From Bedellia somnulentella (Eukaryota; Arthropoda; Insecta; Lepidoptera; Bedelliidae), in assembly GCA_963576735.1 (NCBI GenBank), contig OY755171.1:18104001-18168000 (forward strand): a stretch of DNA of 64,000 nucleotides, written 5' to 3'. The notes beneath the pieces are model-generated. The model did not search any database and was not told where the DNA came from. It worked only from the letters and a program-made list of their open reading frames with translations. Shown here piece by piece: positions 5,421-64,000 of this stretch (positions within the stretch are counted from its first letter, which is position 1; every line of letters begins with the position of its first letter). Position numbers and translations under genes: made by a program.

Positions 5421-6046
5421 CAGTCCCCTAGCTGTCCCCATAATTGATTTGTTGACTAAATATGAAATTTACTAAAAAGTTATTAATGCTACATACGTTT
5501 GTCAGTAATTATCATAAAGAAAACATATTAAAATAGATTATTTTTATATAACTAGGTGTAATTATGCATTTTATTATTAAGTAAACACCTGCAAACTTTG
5601 TCCCCAAAATTTTCATACAGTCCCCTGCCAAAATTTTTAATCCATAGTAAAATAAAACTGTAATATTAAATAACATTGTTCTAAGTGAAACAAAACGCAA
5701 TTGATGTGAAGTTCGCTACGATGCCGAAAACGGTGACGAGACGTCATTTTGTTAAGTGTCAGAGTGACATTTGTATGGTGCAACACGCGTGCACCATACA
5801 AATGTGTGTTCCGGTGCTACAAACAGTCCTCTGGTAAGTAATAATATCATGTTAATTACTTTAATTATTCATATAATACAGTTTGTTGAATTTATATTTA
5901 TGTCTAAATCGATCGGTATGTTCTGAAACAATCTATTAACATCAGTTTTTAAAATATTGTGATATCTATTCAAAATACACAGTCCCCTGGCAACAGTCCT
6001 CTGTCAGAAAATGTGGCAGGGTACTGTTTTATATAACAGGGGACTG
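5421..6046. repeat. Left subterminal CAGTCCCCTG repeat cluster
   Basis: Copies or one-base variants of CAGTCCCCTG lie at 5421, 5618, 5824, 5980 and 5994, with inverted forms at 6017 and 6037. The 5980-6046 group forms a local inverted repeat. Further copies at 7849, 7871 and 7891 sit near the right end. Their placement inside both ends of one element suggests protein-binding sites (inference). Confidence 0.75.
5767..5805. repeat. Perfect 16-bp-arm hairpin
   Basis: ACATTTGTATGGTGCA (5767-5782) is the exact reverse complement of 5790-5805, with a 7-base loop ACACGCG. It lies in the predicted 5' untranslated region of the transposon gene, 28 bases before a good splice donor. It may be an RNA structure or a binding site. 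Confidence 0.9.
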
Positions 6047-6180
6047 TGTCTTTGACGTATTGGTATTGTGTTTATGTGTTGTTTGTGCAAATTTCTCGGC
6101 TACTCTGTTTTATCAATAGGCATCCTCAATGTATCATTATATTTCTTTATAAACTTATATTATTTAAACTCATTTTACAG
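5834..6180 (+). other. Predicted intron in the transposon leader
   Basis: A consensus donor (CTG/GTAAGTAATA, intron starting at 5834) and a polypyrimidine-rich acceptor (CTCATTTTACAG ending at 6180) bracket 347 bases just upstream of the start codon at 6203. The donor overlaps one of the CAGTCCTCTG repeats. No transcript evidence is available. Confidence 0.55.
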
Positions 6181-6202
6181 ACCAAGCGAGAAAATAAATG
6201 AT

Positions 6203-7785
6203 ATGGCTCCTAGAAAGAAAAAGTTATCCCGAGAGGAATTACTACAGAAGAATAGAGACGCAGAACGACATCGATATGAAAAACGGAAAAATGTCCCACA
6301 AAAGAGAGAAGAAATGAGAGAAAAGTAAAAATAGAATTACCAAGAGAAGAAGGAAAAAGGTTTGCAAAAGTTGGTAGAGAATATGACACCTCGTGAGCAC
6401 AGAGTTACCCTAAAGAAGTGGAAAAAACATTGTACCGTGTACCTAACCAAAAGATTAAGACTGAAAAGTATCACTAATACATTTATACGAGACAATACGC
6501 CGTTATCGGATCCAGAAGCAGGTCCTCCGGCTACAAGACCCACCACGCCAATCCTAGAGCAGTTTTCTTCAGCTCCAAGTCTGGTAGCTTCCAGTGCTAG
6601 TCTACTACAAAGAAAGAAAGAAACCACGAGGCGACGTAAAAATTTCAATAGGAAACAAATGAAAAAATTGCACGATTAGAGAAAAAGCTTGAGAAGGACA
6701 ACAAAAGGTTGGCTAGATTTAAAAGAAAATTAAGAAAAACGTTAAAGATACACCTAAAACAAAGATGTTAAAAATGTTAGAAGAGCCTGATGAAAGAAAA
6801 GAAGTAGTAAAGAAAGCATTGTTTGGCGACGTCATTAGTAAGTTGATAGAAAATTATTCTACATTGAAACGTACGAAGGAGACTAATTTTCAAAAAAGTT
6901 GTTACTGGTAGTATTGTTCGAAAGTATAGGCAATGGATACCTAAAAAAATTAAATCGTTGTCTAGACCCGATAGAAACGATGTAAAATACCTGAAAGTTA
7001 TAAAAGAGCTGTTCACAATTTCTTTGAAGATGATGGTAATAGTCGTATGGGAGCCGGTAAAAAAGAATTTATAACTAGGAAGGTTGTAAAGAAACAAAAG
7101 AGGTATCTTCTTGACACAGTTATGAATCTTTACAAAAAGTTTATTACCGGTAACTTTAAAATTAGTTACCAAACATTTTGTCGACTCCGTCCATTTTGGG
7201 CTGTGAAACCAAATGCTCAAAACCGCAACATAGATATGAAGCTGAGCGCACTTTTACTGCTAATATATTGACTTACAACAACCACCAGAAGTTACTGGAA
7301 GAGCTATGTTGCGACCGGTATAATGTGAATTGTTTGGCGAGATCCTGTCATACTAGCCTTAATACAAACCCGAAATATAAAGAATTTGATAACAGAAAAG
7401 TCATAAAATATAAGATGTGGATTTCTGAAAGGCAACAAATACAAAATCTTAAGACTAAAAAGCCCCGTGACTAAATATTTGAAAAAAAAAACATTTGAAG
7501 TACATCCAAGACAGCTCATAATTCAATTACAGAAAGATTAAGACAAATATTTTGATCACCAGCGAAATATTGTTCACCAATATAAAGCCATGAAGGATTT
7601 GAAGTGAAACCTGCAAGGTGACGAAGTCCTGATACACGTCGATTACAGTGAAAATTATTGCACTTAGTACTCTGAATAAATTCAGTCCTTTCATTTCGGT
7701 GGATCTCGTGCACAGCTGAGCCTGCATACAGTAGTAGTTTATCTATGAAATTCAATCCTTTCTTTGGATGCCAAAACATGTCATT
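6203..7785 (+). pseudogene. Decayed transposase-like gene
   Basis: The product begins MAPRKKKLSREELLQKNRD, a lysine/arginine-rich N-terminus, and the frame then breaks at 6326 and several later places. Continuing through the other plus frames gives a proline/threonine-rich linker (about 6480-6600), a basic coiled-coil-like part (about 6660-6730), RKVVKKQKRYLLDT and SYQTFCRLRPFW (7078-7200), a Cys-rich ELCCDRYNVNCL (about 7300-7340), and finally HVDYSENY and FHFGGSRAQLSLH (about 7637-7720). I recall this order of motifs from a widespread arthropod gene family that I cannot name. HVDYSENY may hold the first acidic residue of a DDE-type catalytic core (inference). The C-terminal half is missing, so the copy cannot encode a working enzyme. 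Confidence 0.65.
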
Positions 7786-8187
7786 AAAATAATTAACGAT
7801 TGATTAATGTAAAATAACTTTTTTAAACACATCCTCTGTCTCACTTAACAGTACCCTATCACATTAAAAACAGTCCCCTGACGCCCGAAACAGTCCCCTG
7901 TCATGGTTTTTTGAAAAATAGATAATAACTCGAAAAATACGTATAAATTCAGTGGGCCGCCTAATTTTACTAAAACAACAATTTATTTGCTTTGAAATAG
8001 GACACGTTTTATTGGAAAATATTAAAAAAAAACGCCAGGACATCATCTATATGGAACCTTTACGAGCTTACAGAGAAATACCCATATACCCGCTTTTAGT
8101 ACGTATATCCGATTAAATATATGCCAAAGGAATTACCTTAAAATGACTACAGAAATAAATAATGGAAAAAATAATATTATATAGGTA

Positions 8188-8212: not shown

Positions 8213-8677
8213 ACATAGAACTAATGGGACAAAGTTGAAATTGTGGTTTATGTGTTCATTTCAGAATGTTTGTTGGTGCATTAAATTGTACTGTTTTTCC
8301 AAATACTTTAACCAACTGGAAATTTAATCTTTCTTACGAGAGATATGTGCAATATTCTATGCAGTGAGAGTATTAAAAGGTGACATTGTCTTTGAGTCAG
8401 TGTGATACACCCTAAATTATGCATTAATACTAAGTTCTTTTTGCCTAAATTACTAAAATAACCCATTTTAAATTTTCATCATATGAATATAAATGTTACA
8501 TTGTATGCTGTCATCTCTGCTAACAAAAAAATCAAAACTGTGTGCTAACCATACAATAACTATTATTTCATACTTTTCAATTAAATTTTAACCATATGTT
8601 GGTTTTTTGTAGTCGAATACCCTAATAATTATATAAAAAGTGTATTTACATCAAAATAAAAATACTATTTACACCAA

Positions 8678-9020
8678 AAGAAAGATGATATTGTAAGAAA
8701 GATAGAAAAAGGAATGTTGAGATGGTTTGGGCACATAGAGAGGATGGATGATAGAAAATTGGTAAAAGGGATCTATAGAGCTAGTGTGGATGGTAATGTT
8801 AGTAGAGGACGACCACGGAGAACACACTTGGACCAAATTGAGAGTGTGCTCAAAAAGGCTGGCGTCCGAAGTATGAAGAATAAAAGAGCATGTATGAAAA
8901 GATTGATGGATGTAAACGAAGCTAGAGAGGTTTGTCAGGATCGTACGAAGTGGCGATCGATAGTCTCTGCCTACCCCAATGGGAATTAATGGCGTGAGTA
9001 TATGTATGTATGTATGTATG
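8678..9020 (+). pseudogene. Family L LINE, 5'-truncated copy with 12-bp TSD
   Basis: The insert reads open from about 8681 to the stop near 8987, encoding the LINE C-terminus: KDDIVRKIEKG, MLRWFGHIERMDDRKLVKG, a GRPRRTHLDQI stretch and KWRSIVSAYPNGN. The stop is followed within about 20 bases by (TATG)n, so the 3' untranslated region is almost absent, as in RTE-type LINEs. TATTTACACCAA stands at 8666-8677 and again at 9021-9032, an exact 12-bp target duplication. This is direct evidence of target-primed insertion of a 343-bp truncated copy. The enzyme core is missing, so this is a dead copy. Confidence 0.9.
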
Positions 9021-9032
9021 TATTTACACCAA

Positions 9033-15372: not shown

Positions 15373-18300
15373 TCAGGGGCTCAGGTTCAAGAACCGACGA
15401 ACGATCCGAGCCGTATCGAGCAGCACCGCCTTCTGCATTTGTGCTGGAACCGACACGCCGCAGAAATCCAACCGCCTCAAGTTGGTCGCGAGGCTGGTTG
15501 GAATTAACCCGTTCGCGGACAAAACAATTGGGATTATTTCTGTCGAAGTCACACCCCACATGTCGGTGATCTCGTGGGCCAGATCGAGATATTTCCGACG
15601 CTTCTCGGTTTCGGCTTTCACGAGACCCTCGTCATGAGGGATAGTGACATCCACTAGAAATACCCTCGACTGCGACCGATCCCATACCACGATATCAGGC
15701 TTATTCGCTAGAATAGTCCTGTCCGTGATAACGGATCGGTCCCAATAGATTTTGGCACGGTCGTTTTCTAGGATTGGCTCCGGCAGATACTTGTAATACG
15801 GCAGCCTCTGTTGCAAGAGTCCGTATTTTAGAGCGAGCTCCTGATGCAGGATTTTGGCTGCTTGGTTGTGTCTGTGCAAGTACTCAGTGTTAGCAAGAGC
15901 CGAACAACCGGAAACAACATGCCTAAGTGACTCTCCGGGACGGCCACATGCTCGACAAACGTCTGTGGTACCGTCCTTTAGGATGTATTTCCGATAGTTC
16001 CGCGTCTTGATAACCTGGTCTTGTATTGCACAGACAAAACCTTCGGTTTCCCCAAAGAGGTCCCCGAAACGCAGCCAATGCAGGGAGGCTTTACGGTCCA
16101 CGAAAGGTTCGTGAAGTACCTTGTAAAACCTCCCGTGCAGCTCCTTCTCTTTCCATACGGACTCCCGATCAGAGGTGCTAAGTACCTCCGGGGTTCGCCA
16201 ATCCTGTGAGGCCAACGATAAGGGAGTCAGTCCTTTATCACTAGCGACCACCTCTCCCCGAATACTATCACCCGTCATCGTCAAAAAATAGTTTCTGAGG
16301 TTGCATACCTCGCGGTTGTGCATGGTTTTGGCACTCAAGAGGCCTCGACCACCACACTTCCGCGGGATATACAATCTCATAACCGACGACCTCGGATGAT
16401 GCATTCGATGAGAGGTCATCATCGTGCGGACTCGTCTGTCCAGAGCGTCGAGTTCGGTCTGAGTCCATCTGAGCACGCCAAATGTGTACATCAGTACAGG
16501 CATGACCCAGGAGTTAATGGCTCGGATCTTATTAACGCCTGACAAGTAGCTATTAAGCACACTTTTCAGGCGTTCATAAAACTCCTCGCAAACACCCTGT
16601 TTCACGTCTGCCACCTTCACACCGATGGTTTGTGACATGCCCAGATACCGGTATGTTTCAGCCTCGGAGAGTGCCCTCAAATGATTGGTGCCGACATCGA
16701 CACCATCAGAGTGCACGACATGCCCCTTCTCAACATGAATGACCGCACACTTATCGACCCCGAGCTCCATCTTGACGGAACCACTGAAATCGTTAGTGAT
16801 CGTCAGTAGCTCCGCCAATCTGTCAGCCGTGGGGGCGTAAAGCTTCAGGTCATCCATGTAAAGGAGATGAGGCAAGCGTGGTCCGCCTCTCCGAAACTGA
16901 AAGCCCGTCCCTGAATTCTCCAAGAGTGTACTTAGAGGATTCAGGGCCAAGCAAAACCAAACTGGACTCAGGCAATCGCCCTGGAAAATCCCTCGCCTTA
17001 TATCAATTTGGTCATCCGCGTCCGTCATCCGCTGACCGTCTAAACTCAGGATCGTTCTCCAGCACCCCATACACTGCCCGAGGAAGTGTCGAACTGTACT
17101 TTCAATTTTGTACAGCTCGAGGACCCTCATGAGCCATGAATGAGGTACCGAATCGAACGCCTTCCTGTAGTCTATCCAGCCAGCGGAGAAGTTCCGACGG
17201 TTGCGTTTGACCAGTTGGCCTACGACCGCGTCGATGAGGAGCAGCTCCTTGCTACCGCGACTACCGCCCCTACATCCGTTCTGAGCTCCAGAGATCACAT
17301 TGTTATCAACAATGTGTTGAGTAATTTTGGAGCTCAGAACGGATGTCAAGGTCTTGTAAATTGTACAAAGACAAGTAATGGGGCGGTATTGTGATGGATC
17401 CGCGGTAGCATCGCTCTTTGGAGCTAAATGAGTGACCCCAGTAGTTAAGAAGTTCGGGAGTGTCCCACTCTCGAGGGCGCTTTGAAACTGACGGGCGAGA
17501 GTAGCGTGACAGCGCGTGAACCCCTTCAACCAGTAATGGTGCAATCCGTCCGGCCCTGGACTTTTCCAGTTCGGAGCCTTACGGATCGCAGCCACCACAT
17601 CCTCCTCGGATATGTTGACGGGGTTCATGGGCGCTATGGGCTCGCACGCTCCCTCGACCGCCTCGAACCATCGGCCCTCTTCGTGATTAACAGGCAGCGA
17701 CCAAAGCCCACGCCAAAAGGCAACCACATCGGCTTTTTCCGGTCGCTGACCCGTCGAAACCACATCGGGACGCTCCAAAGTTCTGTAGAACTTCTTCTGG
17801 TCACTCATGAAGAGACGATTCTGTTGGTACCTCTTTACCCTTTCAGAATATCGCCTAATTCGCTTACCCCAAGCAGCGATCTTCTGCTTCAGATCATCGA
17901 TGCGCTCCACCAGTCTACAGGCAAACTCCGGTGAGTTGTCAAAGACATTCTCACCAGGGAATGCCTCCCTGACGAAGCGCACCACCCTCGGCCTATTGTT
18001 GCCTGATCTGAAGCTGGTCAGTTTGCCGATGAGGACCCTGGCCCTTGTGATACGGCTTTCAATCCGCCTCATCCAGGCTGGTCTAGTTCTAGTCCTGGGA
18101 CTAGTACTGCCAGCCTGGCGGGAGCCACCAGCTTTTGTTGGCGGCATCCTGACGCCGACAAATTGACAAACTGTCATCGCGGCGCCAAAGAGAATTGAAT
18201 CCGTATCCCAAAGGTCCATGCTGCTCTCTAAAAATGAGGGCAGCATGTTATTGACGGCCTCAACGACATCCCGAACCTTGATGCTGAGAGGAACTCGGGG

Positions 18301-18969
18301 CAGCCTTGGCCTCCTTTCGAGAGGCACTTGGCGATATTCCAGGATCGTCTCTTCGAGTGCGCTCCTCACCAAATCCAAATCCAGGGAGACTGTTCCCCAA
18401 TCGCTTTCCGCACCACCCACATCCGGCAGGTTAGCAATTGGCTCCCTCCGTACTTCCCGTTCAGGGAGTGGAGGGAGAACCTGCAAAGGTGGCTCTTCGT
18501 CTAGCGGGGGAACAGCCTCGCGTCGCAATTGTTCGAGTTCGGTAGTGCTAAAAAGTTCTGAGCGCTGTATGTACCGAACTCGATCCGCCAGGTTTTGTTC
18601 TGTGACGGTCAAATTGGGCTCCAGCCGCTGAAATTCGCGGAACATTGCTGCCCGATAACCCGTCCGCCCAGTTCTTGATCCTGAGGCCCTAAGGTAGGCC
18701 CGCATGGCATTTCTATTCATATCAACCGTCCATGCCATGCGGCGCCTAGCTCCACCAGCGGCGGGCACCGACTGCTGGGACTGAGTTGCCCCAGTCCCAA
18801 CCGATGCCAAGCCATCTGGTGGCTGAGGTGGTCGCGCAGACCGGCCAGGTGGTCGGGCCGGTCTGGGACGGCTGGGGGACCGCATGCTGCCACGTCCAGC
18901 CCCAGCTCCAGACGCGCCCCAGCGATAACCCCTGGGGAGCGGCCCTATACGCTCATCGTCGTCTTGCAT
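15373..18969 (-). CDS. Dong/R4-clade ORF: reverse transcriptase plus restriction-like endonuclease
   Basis: The 1198-residue product should nick target DNA and copy its own RNA into the break. The N-terminus (1-70) is rich in Arg, Pro and Gly; no zinc finger is obvious there, unlike R2. Reverse transcriptase motifs follow: SQYRPITCL, motif A with Asp600 (DYRKAFD, 600-606), GIFQGDCLSPVWF (motif B) and YMDD at 704-707. Then comes a CCHC knuckle, Cys1005, Cys1008, His1017 and Cys1022. The PD-(D/E)XK nuclease has KPD with Asp1092 and VDVTIP with Asp1107. The order RT, CCHC, nuclease is that of the R2/R4 group. The single frame, the missing N-terminal fingers and the TAA target favour Dong/R4. The start is the first in-frame ATG after the leader. 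The gene is richer in G+C than its surroundings. It looks intact. Confidence 0.9.
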   Translation of the reverse strand: MQDDDERIGPLPRGYRWGASGAGAGRGSMRSPSRPRPARPPGRSARPPQPPDGLASVGTGATQSQQSVPAAGGARRRMAWTVDMNRNAMRAYLRASGSRTGRTGYRAAMFREFQRLEPNLTVTEQNLADRVRYIQRSELFSTTELEQLRREAVPPLDEEPPLQVLPPLPEREVRREPIANLPDVGGAESDWGTVSLDLDLVRSALEETILEYRQVPLERRPRLPRVPLSIKVRDVVEAVNNMLPSFLESSMDLWDTDSILFGAAMTVCQFVGVRMPPTKAGGSRQAGSTSPRTRTRPAWMRRIESRITRARVLIGKLTSFRSGNNRPRVVRFVREAFPGENVFDNSPEFACRLVERIDDLKQKIAAWGKRIRRYSERVKRYQQNRLFMSDQKKFYRTLERPDVVSTGQRPEKADVVAFWRGLWSLPVNHEEGRWFEAVEGACEPIAPMNPVNISEEDVVAAIRKAPNWKSPGPDGLHHYWLKGFTRCHATLARQFQSALESGTLPNFLTTGVTHLAPKSDATADPSQYRPITCLCTIYKTLTSVLSSKITQHIVDNNVISGAQNGCRGGSRGSKELLLIDAVVGQLVKRNRRNFSAGWIDYRKAFDSVPHSWLMRVLELYKIESTVRHFLGQCMGCWRTILSLDGQRMTDADDQIDIRRGIFQGDCLSPVWFCLALNPLSTLLENSGTGFQFRRGGPRLPHLLYMDDLKLYAPTADRLAELLTITNDFSGSVKMELGVDKCAVIHVEKGHVVHSDGVDVGTNHLRALSEAETYRYLGMSQTIGVKVADVKQGVCEEFYERLKSVLNSYLSGVNKIRAINSWVMPVLMYTFGVLRWTQTELDALDRRVRTMMTSHRMHHPRSSVMRLYIPRKCGGRGLLSAKTMHNREVCNLRNYFLTMTGDSIRGEVVASDKGLTPLSLASQDWRTPEVLSTSDRESVWKEKELHGRFYKVLHEPFVDRKASLHWLRFGDLFGETEGFVCAIQDQVIKTRNYRKYILKDGTTDVCRACGRPGESLRHVVSGCSALANTEYLHRHNQAAKILHQELALKYGLLQQRLPYYKYLPEPILENDRAKIYWDRSVITDRTILANKPDIVVWDRSQSRVFLVDVTIPHDEGLVKAETEKRRKYLDLAHEITDMWGVTSTEIIPIVLSANGLIPTSLATNLRRLDFCGVSVPAQMQKAVLLDTARIVRRFLNLSP
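17272..17346. repeat. Compound hairpin inside the Dong-like ORF
   Basis: Positions 17272-17290 and 17328-17346 are perfect 19-bp inverted repeats (ACATCCGTTCTGAGCTCCA and its complement). Nested inside is a second perfect 9-bp stem, CACATTGTT (17296-17304) with AACAATGTG (17308-17316) and a 3-base loop. It lies within the polymerase-coding part, between SVLSSK and SGAQNG, about 60 codons before catalytic Asp600. Confidence 0.9.
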
Positions 18970-19202
18970 ACCATTATGATGAGCAAAGATTCACCCGGGG
19001 TTTCACTCACTTGCCCCGGGGAGACCGTTATTGCTCTATTTTGCGCTGAGACCAGTTTGTAGACACGGTCAACACCTACAAACTCAAGCGCTGACTATTT
19101 GCATTGCTGGAATGGCAAGCTGGTAAACATTTCATCCTGCCATTCCAACAACGGGCGGTGGGGTCGTCACATCCCTACGCCTTATTATTATTATTATTAT
19201 TA

Positions 19203-30828: not shown

Positions 30829-30929
30829 GTTTTCGTGAGGCAAACGCTCGTTGAAGGTAGTGGTGGTGATAATTTTACTACTCATAAATATCTAGCCATG
30901 TCATCATAAATATGAGAAGTTTCTATCTG

Positions 30930-30990
30930 TGACGCTCCGGTTACCCCTTTTTAAGGTTTATAACCGTGAGTATATGTATCATTAATATCA
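30930..30990 (+). repeat. Family A 3' fragment
   Basis: The 3' module and start of a (TATG) tail of one A copy. A second A copy inserted into its tail. Confidence 0.6.
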
Positions 30991-31233
30991 TACATACATA
31001 TACTCACGGCTATAAATCCCAAGAAAGGGGTAGCCAGAGCTAAGGAATTAGAAATTCCTCAGCCACTTTTGGAAGGTGCGTGGGGAATAGATGGTGAAAT
31101 AAAGGTTCTTGGTGATGGGTCTCCAACCGCATCGCCCAAAAATCCCTTAAAAGCCCCAATACCGTTAGTCGCCTTTTACGTACACCCACCGGAAGAAATG
31201 GGGTAGTGCTATTCTAAGCCGACACTACACAGC
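30991..31233 (-). repeat. Family A SINE-like repeat with 10-bp TSD
   Basis: ATTAATATCA at 30981-30990 recurs at 31234-31243, so this 243-bp copy is a retroposed unit running from GCTGTGTAGTGTCGGCTTAG to the (TATG)n tail in minus orientation. Confidence 0.9.
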
Positions 31234-37969: not shown

Positions 37970-38465
37970 ACATACATATACTCACAACTATTAATCCCTA
38001 AAAGGGGAGCCAGAGCTTTGGAATAAGAAATTAACATAACATAACATAAACGTTCACGCCGTTTTATCCCCGAAGGGGTTGGCAGAGGTACCAATACTCC
38101 TGAACTCACATGGCAAGCGCCATCTAGTTTCCAGAGAAGGTACCCACGTTTTGCTTAGACAGTGTACTCACGTGATAGGGGGCAGGCCTATCGCCGTTTT
38201 GTACGAATACACTGTCACATGACTAAGTACAACTCAGCCATGTGGGTTTCCTCACGATGTTTTCCCTCACCGTTAGCAACCATGATAAATTAACCACACA
38301 TATGACTTTAGAAAAGACAAATTGGTGAGAATAAGAAATTACTGAGCCTCTTTTGGAAGTTGAGCCGGGAAAAGATGGTAAAAAAATAATAAATAATTGT
38401 TGGTGATGGGTCGCCAAGCACATCGCTCAAAAATCACTTAAGAAGCCCCTATACCCTAATACAAA
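37970..38465 (-). repeat. Family A repeat split by a T SINE
   Basis: Family A reads from CATATACTCACAACTATTAA to the point GAATAAGAAATTA (38021-38033), then resumes at 38329 with the same 13 bases and continues to 38465. Confidence 0.85.
38034..38328 (-). repeat. Family T SINE with exact 13-bp TSD
   Basis: GAATAAGAAATTA at 38021-38033 and 38329-38341 flanks a T copy whose tail is (AACAT)n on the plus strand. The copy lacks the tRNA-like head, so it is 5'-truncated like a LINE copy. This shows that T moves by target-primed reverse transcription. Confidence 0.92.
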
Positions 38466-40257: not shown

Positions 40258-40640
40258 TGTAACATAACATAAACATAAACGTTCACGCCGGATATCCCCG
40301 AAGGGGTTGGCATAGGTACTAATACTTCTGAACATCACGTGACTTTGTCACCTGGTGTTCAGAGTACCCACGTTTTGCATGGACATAGTGTACTCACGTG
40401 ATAGGGGGCAGGCCTATCGCCGTTTTGTACGAATACACTGTCACATGACTAAGTACAACTCAGCCATGTGGATTTCCTCACGATGTTTTCCCTCACCGTT
40501 AACAACCATGATAAATTAACCACACATATGTCTTTAGAAAAGACAAATTGGTGTAGGCCCGACCCAGGATTTGAACACTAGTCGTTTGCACGATAACCGA
40601 GTGTTCCACCCACTGGGCTATCACGGTTGCTATGCACCAT
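40258..40640 (-). repeat. Family T SINE, full length
   Basis: On the minus strand: tRNA-like head with TAGCCCAGTGG (A box, 40610-40620) and GTTCAAATCC (B box, 40567-40576), then the T body, then the 3' module with the CCCC-TTC-GGGG stem (40296-40306), then GGCGTGAACG and a TTATG-type tail. It is the best reference copy of the family. Confidence 0.9.
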
Positions 40641-41011
40641 GTGTTTCTGGAAATCTATCTTTCTTGATTCGTCCTTTTAAAACTCATGTTTACTTAATTA
40701 GACTTTATTGTAGATGAAACCTCACGTAGGAATTAGTTTACTCATCAATCCATTGTCACTTATTTATTTTTGAATCCTAACTCTTATCCTCAGCCCTTTA
40801 CAACAGTACATTTGTACAACAGATCAAATATCACTTGTCCCATATCACAAACCTATACAGTAATTCAACAAGCCATGTATTCCTATCGGGATAGGAAGGG
40901 ACTTTTGGTATTAAATTTGTATAATCGTTATACGCTCGACATCCATTCCCATGGGTGTCGTACGAGTCGACTAAGGTTTTTGGGCTATTTTAAGTGAATG
41001 TTGGGTGATGT

Positions 41012-46490: not shown

Positions 46491-46739
46491 AGCTGTGTAG
46501 TGTCGGCTTAGAATAACAGTACCCCATTTCTGCCGGTGGGTGTACGTAAGAGGCGACTAACGGTATTGGGGCTTTTAAGGGATTTTTGGGCGATGCGGCT
46601 GGAGACCTATCACCAACAACCTTTATTTTACCATCTTTTCCCCACACAACTTTCCAAAAGTGGCTGAGGAATTTCTAATTCCTACGCTCTGGCTACCCCT
46701 TCTAGGGATTTATAGCCGTGAGTATATGTATGTATGTAT
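46491..46739 (+). repeat. Family A SINE-like repeat, well preserved
   Basis: From GCTGTGTAGTGTCGGCTTAG to GTGAGTATATGTATGTATG. Its 3' hairpin has a perfect 5-bp outer stem, GGCTA (46691-46695) with TAGCC (46713-46717), and an inner CCC/GGG stem. Confidence 0.9.
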
Positions 46740-55134: not shown

Positions 55135-55600
55135 CATACATATACTCAAGCCATTAGTTTCCATTGGGGTAGGCAGAGACTACTAATCGCCACTTCGTAC
55201 TATCCTGTCATACCTCTTTAGTTTCGTTTACATCCATCAATCTTTTCATACATGCTTTCTGTTATTTATGCTTTCATACATACTCTTTTAATCTTCATAC
55301 TTCGGACGCCCGTCATTTTGAGTACATAACATAAATATAAACGTTCACGCCGAATATCCCCGAAGGGGTTGGCAGAGGTATCACATTACTAAATACAACT
55401 CAGTCATGTGGGTTTCCTCACGATGTTATCCCTCACCGTTAACAACCATGATAAATTAGCCACACATATGTCTTTAGAAAGACAAATTGGTGTAGGCCCG
55501 ACCCGGGATTTGAACACTAGTCGCTTGCACGTTAACCGGTGTTCTACCCATTGAGCTATCACGTCGTCGTCGTTTTTGAGTACACTTTCACTTTTATAGG
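55135..55600 (-). pseudogene. Family L LINE fragment split by a T SINE
   Basis: L sequence from CATATACTCAAGCCATTAG to CGTCATTTTGAGTACA (55326) resumes at 55574 with TTTTGAGTACA and CTTTCAC. A local duplication of the CATGCTTT/CATACTCTTTT part is present near 55250-55290. Confidence 0.75.
55327..55573 (-). repeat. Family T SINE in an L fragment, 11-bp TSD
   Basis: TTTTGAGTACA stands at 55316-55326 and 55574-55584. The SINE keeps its tRNA-like head (TAGCTCAATGG and GTTCAAATCC on the minus strand) and its ACATA tail but lacks about 130 bases of body. It proves that T moved after this L copy was in place. Confidence 0.9.
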
Positions 55601-56269: not shown

Positions 56270-56597
56270 ATATACTCACGGCTATAAATCCCTAGAAGGG
56301 GTAGCCAGAGCTAAGGAATTAGAAATTCCTCAGCCACTTTTGGAAAATTGAGTGGGGAAAAGATGGTAAACATACATACATACATACATATACTCACGCC
56401 ATTAGTTCCCATTGGGGTAGGCAGAGACTATTGATCGCCACTTCGCAGATGAAGATGGTAAAGTAAAGGTTGTTAGTGATGGGTTTCAACCGCATCGCCC
56501 AAAAATCCCTTAAAAGCCCCAATACCGCTAGTCGCCTCTTACGTACACCCATCGGTAGAAACGGGGTAGTGCTATTCTAATCCGACACTACACGGCA
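56270..56597 (-). repeat. Family A repeat split by a tiny L insertion
   Basis: Family A from CATATACTCACGGCTATAAATC to AAGATGGTAAA (56370), then from the repeated AAGATGGTAAA (56452) to GACACTACACGG. Confidence 0.88.
56371..56451 (-). repeat. 81-bp family L insertion with exact 11-bp TSD
   Basis: AAGATGGTAAA at 56360-56370 and 56452-56462 flanks only the L tail (CATA)n, the CTCACGCC...CCCATTGGGGTAGGCAGAG module and a few codons. Such extreme 5' truncation shows that this 3' end alone is enough to be recognised and inserted. Confidence 0.92.
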
Positions 56598-61530: not shown

Positions 61531-62391
61531 GACCATAAAACTGCGTATATACTCATTAAAATTGGTGTTCGGCGTTAAACATCTACATTTTTTTAATAAG
61601 TCTCGGTTGTGAGCATATTCGTTGGCGGTGAGATCAAACCGAATACATTTAGGTAGATGTCACTGATTGTTAAATTAAAAATAACATGCACTTATTTTAT
61701 TTCCATCGGGAGTTTCTGTCAGTGGAGATAAATACCAGTTGTTTTCTTTCTCGACTTTATTTTAAGTGTAATTTCAAATTTAAATAGTACTACCATTTGT
61801 AGAGACTGCATGCTGTGGCGATGACTGAGTATATGGATTTTTAAATATTTATTTTAAGATGCAGTTAGATCTTATCACGTGAAATCCTTTACTTCGTCGT
61901 TCATTTATATTTTACTGCTTAAAACAAAACAATGTATGCGAAGCTCTTGTGTAATAGGCCAGTTTTTCTGTAGTTTTTTCGTGTTGTTTCTAAATTAATA
62001 ATGTTAATTTAAAATTTAAGCTGGATCGATATGAAACATAACCCATCTTTTAGCAAGTGACCGCTTTTTGGGCACTTGTGAAACAACGATAAACGTATTT
62101 TTCGGCGATAATATCGTAACAAATCAATACTAACTCTTCCTACAATTTTACATACAATCCATATCGCATCAAGTATAACTCAACTTATGCATTTCTGTAC
62201 TTTTCTGTGAAGTGTAATACATTGTGTTATAGCAATTGTCACTTGTACAGAATGAATGAGCTAGTGTTCTTCATAAATAAAAAATCTTCATTTACTTAAT
62301 CCCAGACATATTCCCGTTATAATTAGTGCACTCCATTCAAAAGTAAACGGCTATCGGTGAAAATCAGCGTATACCCTTTAACTTTCACACT
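61531..62391. other. No recognisable gene
   Basis: AT-rich. Nothing is supported. Confidence 0.4.
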
Positions 62392-62604
62392 ACATACATA
62401 CATTATATAAGGAATTAGAAACTCCTCAGCCACTTTTGGAAAGTTGAGTAGGGTAAAGATGGTAAAATAAAGGTTATTAGTGATGGGTCTCCAACCACAT
62501 CGCCCAAAAATCTCTTAAAAGCTCCAATACCGTTAGTTGCCTCTTACGTACACCCACCGGCAGAAATGGGGTAGTGCTATTCTAAGCCGACACTACACAG
62601 CAAC
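62392..62604 (-). repeat. Family A repeat with exact 15-bp TSD
   Basis: TTTAACTTTCACACT lies at 62377-62391 and 62605-62619. The copy has the GTTGCTGTGTAGTG 5' end; the tail side has lost the hairpin module by a later deletion. Confidence 0.93.
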
Positions 62605-62945: not shown

Positions 62946-64000
62946 TACTTACTTACTTACTTATACTCATGCCCATTGTTCCCATTGGGGTAGGCAGAGA
63001 CTATCGATCGCCACTTTGTACGATCCAGGCAAATAACTTTTGCTTATGTTACATTCATCATTCTTCTCATACATGCTCTTTTATTCTTCATACTTCGGAC
63101 GCCGGCCTTTTTGAGCACACACTCTATTTGGTCCAGGTGTGTCCTCCGTGGTCGTCCTCTACTCACATTACCTTGCACGTTGGCTCTATAGATCTCTTTC
63201 ACCAATTTACTGTCATACATCCTCTCTATGTGCCCAAACCACACACATCTTTCACACCTAAACGTTCACGAATTACACTATTTCTCACTCTGTCGCACAA
63301 CCTTACATTACATATACTTCTGAGGGATCTCATTTCCACTGCATTCACTCTACTTTCATGCCTCTTTTGCCATGCCCAACATTCACTACCATACATCAGC
63401 GTAGGAACCAGTACAGCATTGTGAACTGCCATTCGCGCCTTTTCAGACAGGAACTGGCTCGACATTAGACTGTTTATGGCTCCATTTACCGCATTTCCCT
63501 TTTTTACTCTCCTTTCAATATCTTCCTCGCATTTTCCGTCCCTTGTAAACAAACTTCCCAGATATACAAACTCTTTCACTTGTTCCACTTTCTTGCCACC
63601 TATTGTAATCTCACATTCTGTCATACTTTCCTCTCTCTGGAAAACCATTGTCTTGGTTTTGTCCACATTCACTCGCATGCCCTTTCTTTCAAAAGACTTA
63701 CACGCAATATTCACCATCTCTTGCAACTCATTTACCGTTGATGCAAGTAATACTTGATCGTCAGCGTATATGACATTTAGGCATTTGATGACGAATCCAC
63801 CCATTCTCAGACCATAATCACTTTCGCGTAGTTCTTTCAAACAGTCATCCATGAACAGATTGAAAAGCCACGGAGAAGCTACACAACCCTGACGTACACC
63901 CCTAGAGATTTCAAACCAGTCCGTGTTTTCTCCGTCTATTCTTACACATGCACTGGAACCCTCATAGAGTGACTCCAATGCACGTATAAGTTGGCTCCCC
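62946..64000 (-). pseudogene. Family L LINE, polymerase and C-terminal part, running off the right edge
   Basis: From the window edge the minus strand reads QLIRALESLYEGSSACVRI, GVRQGCVASPWLFNLFMDD (motif B), YADD (63757-63768, motif C, two catalytic Asp), VNVDKTKTMVF, VKEFVYLGSLFTRDGK and LMYGSECWAWQKR up to 63226. A deletion with frameshift near 63240 removes the GVKDDIV...LRWFGH junction. A second frame (WFGHIERM, GRPRRTHLDQIE) then runs to about 63044, and later codons are broken. The end is CTGCCTACCCCAATGGG with an (ACTT/AAGT)n tail at 62942-62963. The N-terminal nuclease would lie outside. The tail directly after the frame suggests an RTE-like clade, but I am not certain. It cannot make a full protein. 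Confidence 0.8.

Follow-up and report, generated by a model that had tools for sequence, protein, structure and literature searches.

A LINE and two SINE families of Bedellia somnulentella share a 3' end that likely forms a hairpin

Described LINE/SINE partnerships and the new example

The closest described systems are from Lepidoptera. In Helicoverpa armigera, HaRTE1, HaSE1, and HaSE3 have one tail within one species; HaSE1 has a tRNA head and HaSE3 has a 5S head, and 43 bp of the LINE end is found in HaSE1 at 82% identity (PMC3272025). PxLINE1 is a LINE of 3228 bp with EN, RT, and ATGT repeats: 43-56 bp of its 3' end is found in SINEs, among them PxSE5 (5S head) and SfSE1 (tRNA head), which come from different species (PMC8010984). 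The words "stem" and "hairpin" are absent from the main texts of both papers. Searches of the open literature turned up no description of a hairpin for this lepidopteran tail; subscription papers, figures, and supplements lay outside the search. More broadly, the occurrence of RTE C-termini beside microsatellites is general in Lepidoptera (PMC2887409), and in Heliconius, Metulj is suspected of partnering with an RTE LINE (PMC6685494).

We analyzed a 64-kb stretch of the B. somnulentella genome (the window; 36% GC) and, for some counts, 264 kb made up of the window and the next 200 kb. A LINE (L) and two SINE families (A and T) have different bodies but the same 3' hairpin of roughly 36 bases (a likely structure, not a proven one). 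An earlier note, which was made from the letters of the window, had stated that it knew of no description of this three-way sharing. However, such sharing is already in print (PMC3272025; PMC8010984; PMC3747384, table), and L, A, and T are a fresh example of an already known kind of LINE/SINE partnership.

As in the HaRTE1 system, a single LINE of the kind called RTE has its 3' end in two SINEs with different heads, target-site duplications (TSDs) are present, and the 3' UTR is very short and contains repeats (PMC3272025). As far as the descriptions go, the systems differ in that the H. armigera tails end in TGA repeats and that HaSE1 and HaSE3 share a body too (PMC3272025). PxLINE1, again by description, resembles L: it is an EN/RT LINE with ATGT repeats and a 3' end common to SINEs (PMC8010984). 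T is similarly like SfSE1 and its relatives, which have tRNA heads and (ATGT)n, (ATGTT)n, or (TGTTA)n tails (PMC8010984). SfSE1 is a lead to the identity of T, likened by its description and not by its letters. In the sections and passages of PMC8010984 that we consulted, no SINE headed by the LINE's 5' end, as A is, appears in the PxLINE1 system.

Outside the Lepidoptera, the ruminant elements Bov-B (a LINE), Bov-tA (a tRNA-headed SINE), and Bov-A2 (a SINE headed by the LINE's 5' end) correspond to L, T, and A (PMC3747384, table), but these are vertebrate elements, and the likeness is in element makeup, not in tails. The same table lists the arrangement with both LINE ends for Bov-A2 and several RTE SINEs. 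In grasses, LINE1-1_ZM, ZmSINE2, and ZmSINE3 have a common 3' end of ~50 bases with a hairpin and compensatory stem changes, as L, A, and T probably do (PMC3747384, section 4.3). However, those are plant elements of the L1 clade, and their stem is variable while the loop and the 3' flank are conserved. UnaL2, ZfL2-1, and ZfL2-2 have a tail stem-loop and a repeat, as L probably does, and in those LINEs the protein binds the stem-loop (PMC4176376). In zebrafish, the stem-loop in the ZfL2-2 tail is bound by that LINE's own protein, and ZfL2 LINEs with the stem-loop deleted or swapped are immobile (PMC4176376). Unlike L, the ZfL2 elements are of the L2 clade and were tested at the bench, and loop identity matters there, whereas the loops of L, A, and T differ.

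Three families with one tail

Family L codes for the C-terminal part of a LINE reverse transcriptase. The 5'-truncated copy at 8678..9020 (plus strand) is flanked by a 12-bp TSD (TATTTACACCAA, at 8666-8677 and 9021-9032). Its C-terminal frame (8680..8989, plus strand) ends in ...WRSIVSAYPNGN and a stop, and the TAA lies within the 3' internal loop of the tail hairpin (8965..8998, plus strand). This hairpin reads CUCU-GCC, inner CCC/GGG, and GGC-G-(U)-GAG and is followed by (TATG)n. The longest L copy within the window (62946..64000, minus strand) includes the RT domain (RVT_1; E = 3.4e-18 for the window's L piece), and its likeness to another LINE copy runs on to position 65231 of the 264-kb stretch.

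Full-length L is about 3.4 kb, and its full-length copies have the identical C-terminal ending. We fetched five 4-kb stretches around LINE copies, all of which were found by searching with L. In all five, CTCTGCCTACCCCAATGGGAATTAACGGCGTGAG is followed by TATG-type repeats, and in three the frame is unbroken to SAYPNGN. The stop-to-stop frames have 1057 codons (L092 and L094) or 1007 codons (L095), and SAYPNGN ends a few bases before the repeats. These are the traits of the type named RTE in Lepidoptera: one long frame that includes RT and a 3' UTR of little beyond repeats. Three of the five full-length copies have candidate TSDs (11, 10, and 9 bp). A piece of the L058 copy has a weak match to Exo_endo_phos_2 (E = 0.0035; 17.6 bits, below the cut-off of 27.4), and a shorter piece gave no match.

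Among the 120 of 149 related proteins listed, the best-scoring relatives of L with named hosts are lepidopteran (Phthorimaea, Parnassius, Pectinophora, Cydia, and Plutella); the source names are mixed, and no clade is readable from them. The C-terminus of L had one close relative and one weak match in a protein database and no locus in a viral contig collection. A genome search with the last 160 bases of L gave no match, but the tool skips very common words, so this result is uninformative on copy number.

Other repeats lie nearby. At about 1156-1588 of L059 (C1:18249156-18249588), five L-like tail matches in one orientation occur in about 430 bases, resembling a tandem array that expanded from the end of a LINE. 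A 1205-aa stop-to-stop frame at 15373-18990 (minus strand; RVT_1, E = 3.4e-25) is from a different LINE. By eye, this frame has a C-terminal zinc knuckle and a PD..D-type stretch, which we take to be like the restriction-like endonuclease of R2/NeSL-type LINEs. The region at 5800-7900, in which weak coding stretches (6056-7474) are surrounded by recurring CAGTCCCCTG-type motifs, looks like another mobile element or its remains.

T is represented by a copy at 55327..55573 (minus strand), which lies within an older L copy and has an 11-bp TSD (TGTACTCAAAA, at 55584-55574 and 55326-55316). Its tRNA-like head (55495..55562, minus strand), which is also present in the longer T copies, contains stretches that resemble A and B boxes by eye. 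ARAGORN reported no tRNA in the window. The tail hairpin of this copy (55344..55377, minus strand) reads CTCTGCC-AA-CCCC-TTC-GGGG-ATATTC-GGCGTGAA and is followed by a TTATG-type tail. The T copy discussed in the earlier note is at 40266..40700 (minus strand), with its hairpin at 40311-40287. A T-body pattern hit 7 stretches in contig collections, and BLAST across 50 loci gave one 18-base match to T. At 41675-41566 (minus strand), an A-type tail stands no more than about 10 bases after a piece of T body; template switching may have joined the two.

Family A is about 250 bp long, and the earlier note gave it no clear tRNA origin. Its head does have a recognizable source, as the first ~87 bases of A are homologous to the 5' end of L; in the copy at 46491..46739 (plus strand), this head is followed by a body of unknown origin and an L-like tail. 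The 264 kb contain 99 matches to the A head, and for 8 of these there is no A body within 400 bases. One such match, about 74 kb past the window (L058, from 3862 downwards on the minus strand), stands at the start of a LINE copy whose identity to the L at the window's edge is 79.5% across 1.7 kb. A whole-genome search with the first 763 bases of this LINE, in which 40 of 2749 candidates were scored, gave at least 42 matches, and 27 of those listed start at query base 1-3. In 19 of the 20 LINE 5' loci that were fetched, the match starts at the A-head boundary. Because the query itself began at that boundary, the real test is the preceding bases: the 40 bases upstream of the LINE start are unrelated between loci (mean identity 0.33 and maximum 0.62 across 190 pairs).

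Compared with the start of the LINE, the A head has 74, 74, and 75 of 87 bases in common in three copies and 63 of 70 in a fourth. Its score against the LINE 5' end is 87, while the best of 500 shuffles scored 32. The head aligns at the LINE 5' end in four of the five fetched 4-kb stretches; in the fifth (L091), the best A alignment is to a neighbouring A copy, but L072 shows the 5' end of the LINE in question. Given this head and the shared tail, A bears both ends of L. We rejected the idea that the A body derives from the LINE's 5' UTR, as the score of the body against the remainder of the LINE's 5' region was matched by 388 of 1000 shuffles. BLAST of the A body against the whole LINE element gave weak matches only, and an A-head pattern had no match in either the viral or the genome contig collection. 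In L078, L080, and L084, a partial second copy of the LINE's first ~17 bases lies directly before the 5' end, which is perhaps a trace of 5'-end completion.

With the repeat included, the L end is 77-85% identical to A copies over about 50-64 bases (best E = 2.6e-13 within the window). Without the repeat, the scores between tail consensuses were matched by 1 of 2000 shuffles for L and A and by 0 of 2000 for both L and T and A and T. From 36 aligned window tails (alignment A1), we built a profile that uses sequence letters only. At E<=0.01, it matches 139 tails across the 264 kb, and the window accounts for 39 of these. Sorted by the body upstream, 63 of the 139 belong to A, 28 to T, and 25 to L; the other 23 have no assigned body, but many of them are plainly pieces of L, A, or T. 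So, the claim that a LINE and two SINE families have one 3' end in common is borne out by alignments, shuffle tests, and the profile, and these families share 3'-terminal sequence as partners of the stringent type do. Rfam at its gathering threshold found nothing in the window. In the viral and genome contig collections, some tail patterns had no match. The 43 tail-pattern stretches that did turn up there, with CGTGA near 3 of them, all looked like chance and were set aside.

TSDs were found on copies of L, A, and T, and TSDs with a 3' repeat are the marks of target-primed reverse transcription. Clear TSDs of 9-13 bp flank 9 of 35 copies (4 A, 2 T, and 3 L); the others have none or short chance-like repeats. 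The insertions are also nested: L in A, T in A, and T in L. Inside the A element at 56596-56258 lies a 5'-truncated L (56371..56451, minus strand; aligned at 56445-56370) with an 11-bp TSD (TTTACCATCTT, at 56462-56452 and 56370-56360). We had considered 56596-56370 as an A-L chimera, but the TSD is present and L was inserted in A. Another A element contains a T copy at 38034..38328 (minus strand) with a 13-bp TSD (TAATTTCTTATTC, at 38341-38329 and 38033-38021).

Two A copies lack most or all of the hairpin. The copy at 62391..62603 (minus strand; the edges are ambiguous by a few bases) lacks the hairpin stretch but has a perfect 15-bp TSD and a TATG repeat; with its TSDs, it spans 62618-62376. 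This copy may reflect a skip during reverse transcription, a later deletion, or a dispensable hairpin. In the copy at 55989-55808, most of the hairpin and the repeat are missing, and no TSD was found.

The hairpin and the swapped pair

The paired segments lie where the earlier note had placed them. In L, GCC at 8969-8971 is opposite GGC at 8991-8993 around CCC/GGG. In A, GGCTA at 46691-46695 is opposite TAGCC at 46713-46717, and these form the outer stem of the hairpin at 46687..46722 (plus strand). In T, on the minus strand, GCC and GGC lie inside 40311-40287 around CCCC-TTC-GGGG. The reported stems hold, but they are too short: in both L and A, RNAfold adds CUC/GAG and a U-G pair on the outer side, and one U is bulged. 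The outermost C of the T consensus is opposite an A.

Copies of L vary in their outer stem. Nine L tails in the window have both arms, and in 6 of them the reported part of this stem measures 3 bp; the 5-bp outer form seen in A occurs in L copies 63001 and 4409, and L copy 31760 is broken. The common L form is predicted to fold at -8.0 kcal/mol, L copy 63001 at -12.7, L copy 4409 at -9.1, A at -15.0, and T at -9.1. Nine stretches that were folded singly had z-scores of -1.7 to +1.0 versus shuffles, so no single stretch folds exceptionally.

The middle pair of the outer stem is C-G in L and T and G-C in A. As claimed, pairing is kept through this swap: among the tails in the 264 kb with letters on both sides, the pair is intact in 22 of 25 for L, 60 of 61 for A, and 25 of 27 for T. 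(These counts omit the 23 tails without a body, and one tail counted as A has the L form and is probably the nested L at 56426.) The swap is one between-family event, on the branch to A. Thus, the compensatory change that the earlier note described is real, but it lacks significance on a phylogeny-aware null. We checked covariation with our own script, a tree-based null in the manner of R-scape. Within the window, the swap pair ranked seventh (E = 9.06; 33 of the 36 tails, three being incomplete). Across the 264 kb, it was the best of all column pairs (129 of the 139 tails), with a score that was reached in 1 of 150 simulations of that pair; still, as E = 1.29 on this null, the covariation is suggestive only.

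The A tail at 30935-30980 reads GGTTA/TAACC, which is a second change on both sides, but this is one decayed copy. It is one of two A tails at 30913-31233 that are inverted relative to each other and about 10-20 bases apart.

How the tail may be recognized

The best overall explanation, to which we give a probability of roughly 0.82 from the sequences, is that the L protein copies the RNA of A and T by recognizing their tail, as in partnerships of the stringent type. L would be autonomous and one of the LINEs that go by the name RTE in Lepidoptera: a single long frame would span RT and an endonuclease-like part, with hardly any 3' UTR after it. The RNA of L would end in the hairpin and then (UAUG)n. 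Most likely, this tail is where the L protein binds, and reverse transcription then begins within the repeat at a nicked target; A and T, which are non-autonomous and have the same tail, would use the L enzyme. We infer both the mobilization of A and T by the L enzyme and its reading of shape, not just of sequence.

It could be sequence that is recognized: the L protein might respond to the repeat and to the letters that are conserved, and a chance pair of changes in the founder copy of A might account for the swap. Most of the pairs hardly vary, so they cannot test structure, and the swap pair's E value on the phylogeny-aware null leaves room for chance. T keeps 9 of 10 L pairs, which random placement often reaches (P = 0.119, post hoc), and pairing is broken in some T copies. 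However, A differs from L at 6 of 31 comparable columns with 10 of 10 L pairs intact (P = 0.015 for random placement), and it has 7 differences from L copy 63001 with 12 of 12 pairs intact (P = 0.002 if changes are uniform or 0.010 if transitions are favoured); both tests were framed after the swap had been seen. Sixteen window copies with changes in paired columns keep 138 pairs versus 131.9 expected, a small excess. Also, over ten pairs (seven outer and three inner, counted in the inner register CCC-AAT-GGG, although RNAfold shifts the L inner stem by one base), 92.6% of cells are paired, as against 33-49% if the partners are slid by 1-3 columns. We consider recognition of sequence alone to be unlikely. 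As for the protein, the L hairpin letters GCC TAC CCC AAT GGG AAT TAA encode Ala-Tyr-Pro-Asn-Gly-Asn-stop, and the 3' arm alone is untranslated, a point absent from the earlier note. The letters might thus be kept as the C-terminus S-A-Y-P-x-G and merely inherited by the SINEs. The letters for N-stop follow the Gly codon in all five fetched LINE tails and in 8 of 11 aligned L window tails. SAYP was reached in 24 of 122 fetched relative proteins, with G two residues on in 21 of the 24 and an Ala end in 20 of the 24; back-translated from the proteins, these Ala ends could place a TGA stop in the 3' arm. Because most of the L hairpin is coding, conservation of the tail in the LINE alone says little about RNA and cannot tell RNA constraint from protein constraint; the L arm is held by protein and also, perhaps, by RNA. 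The tails of A and T are non-coding, which makes the SINEs the proper witnesses for RNA constraint. Nearly all of their tails (63 and 28) keep both arms, and A has changed both partners of one pair, which makes a purely coding explanation improbable.

It is quite improbable that A and T owe their movement to some other LINE whose tail is similar. Such a LINE might account for the TTATG repeat of T and the swapped pair in A, and the five full-length LINE 3' ends that we read all came from a search with L. But the A head is the 5' end of L, 116 of the 139 tails have an L, A, or T body, and we recognized no fourth family in the 264 kb. Mobilization by the L enzyme is favored by three bodies with one tail, TSDs, nesting, the match of the A head, and the kept swap pair, and by the ZfL2 paradigm (PMC4176376). 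Against it are the covariation E values, the unremarkable folds, and the conserved letters CTCTG, CCCC, GGG, and CGTGA, which are readable as sequence, along with the A copy that has a TSD but no hairpin, the use of TTATG and not TATG in T, and the small share of copies with clear TSDs. More tentatively, and at slightly less than even odds, the tail signal may be a shape that overlaps the end of the L gene, so that one RNA stretch serves as the final codons with the stop and also as a landing pad for the enzyme; the SINEs, relieved of coding, would have re-tuned it by paired changes, and the L enzyme would accept the middle pair in either orientation.

LINEs that are parasitised by SINEs via a common tail are widespread. 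In the main texts of the two closest lepidopteran papers, the common ends are handled as a matter of sequence similarity (PMC3272025; PMC8010984). A genome with full-length L and two SINEs whose tails differ offers a clean test of sequence versus shape recognition. If recognition by shape is true, then two SINE lineages, one of them with both LINE ends, would amount to a natural mutagenesis of the recognition site.
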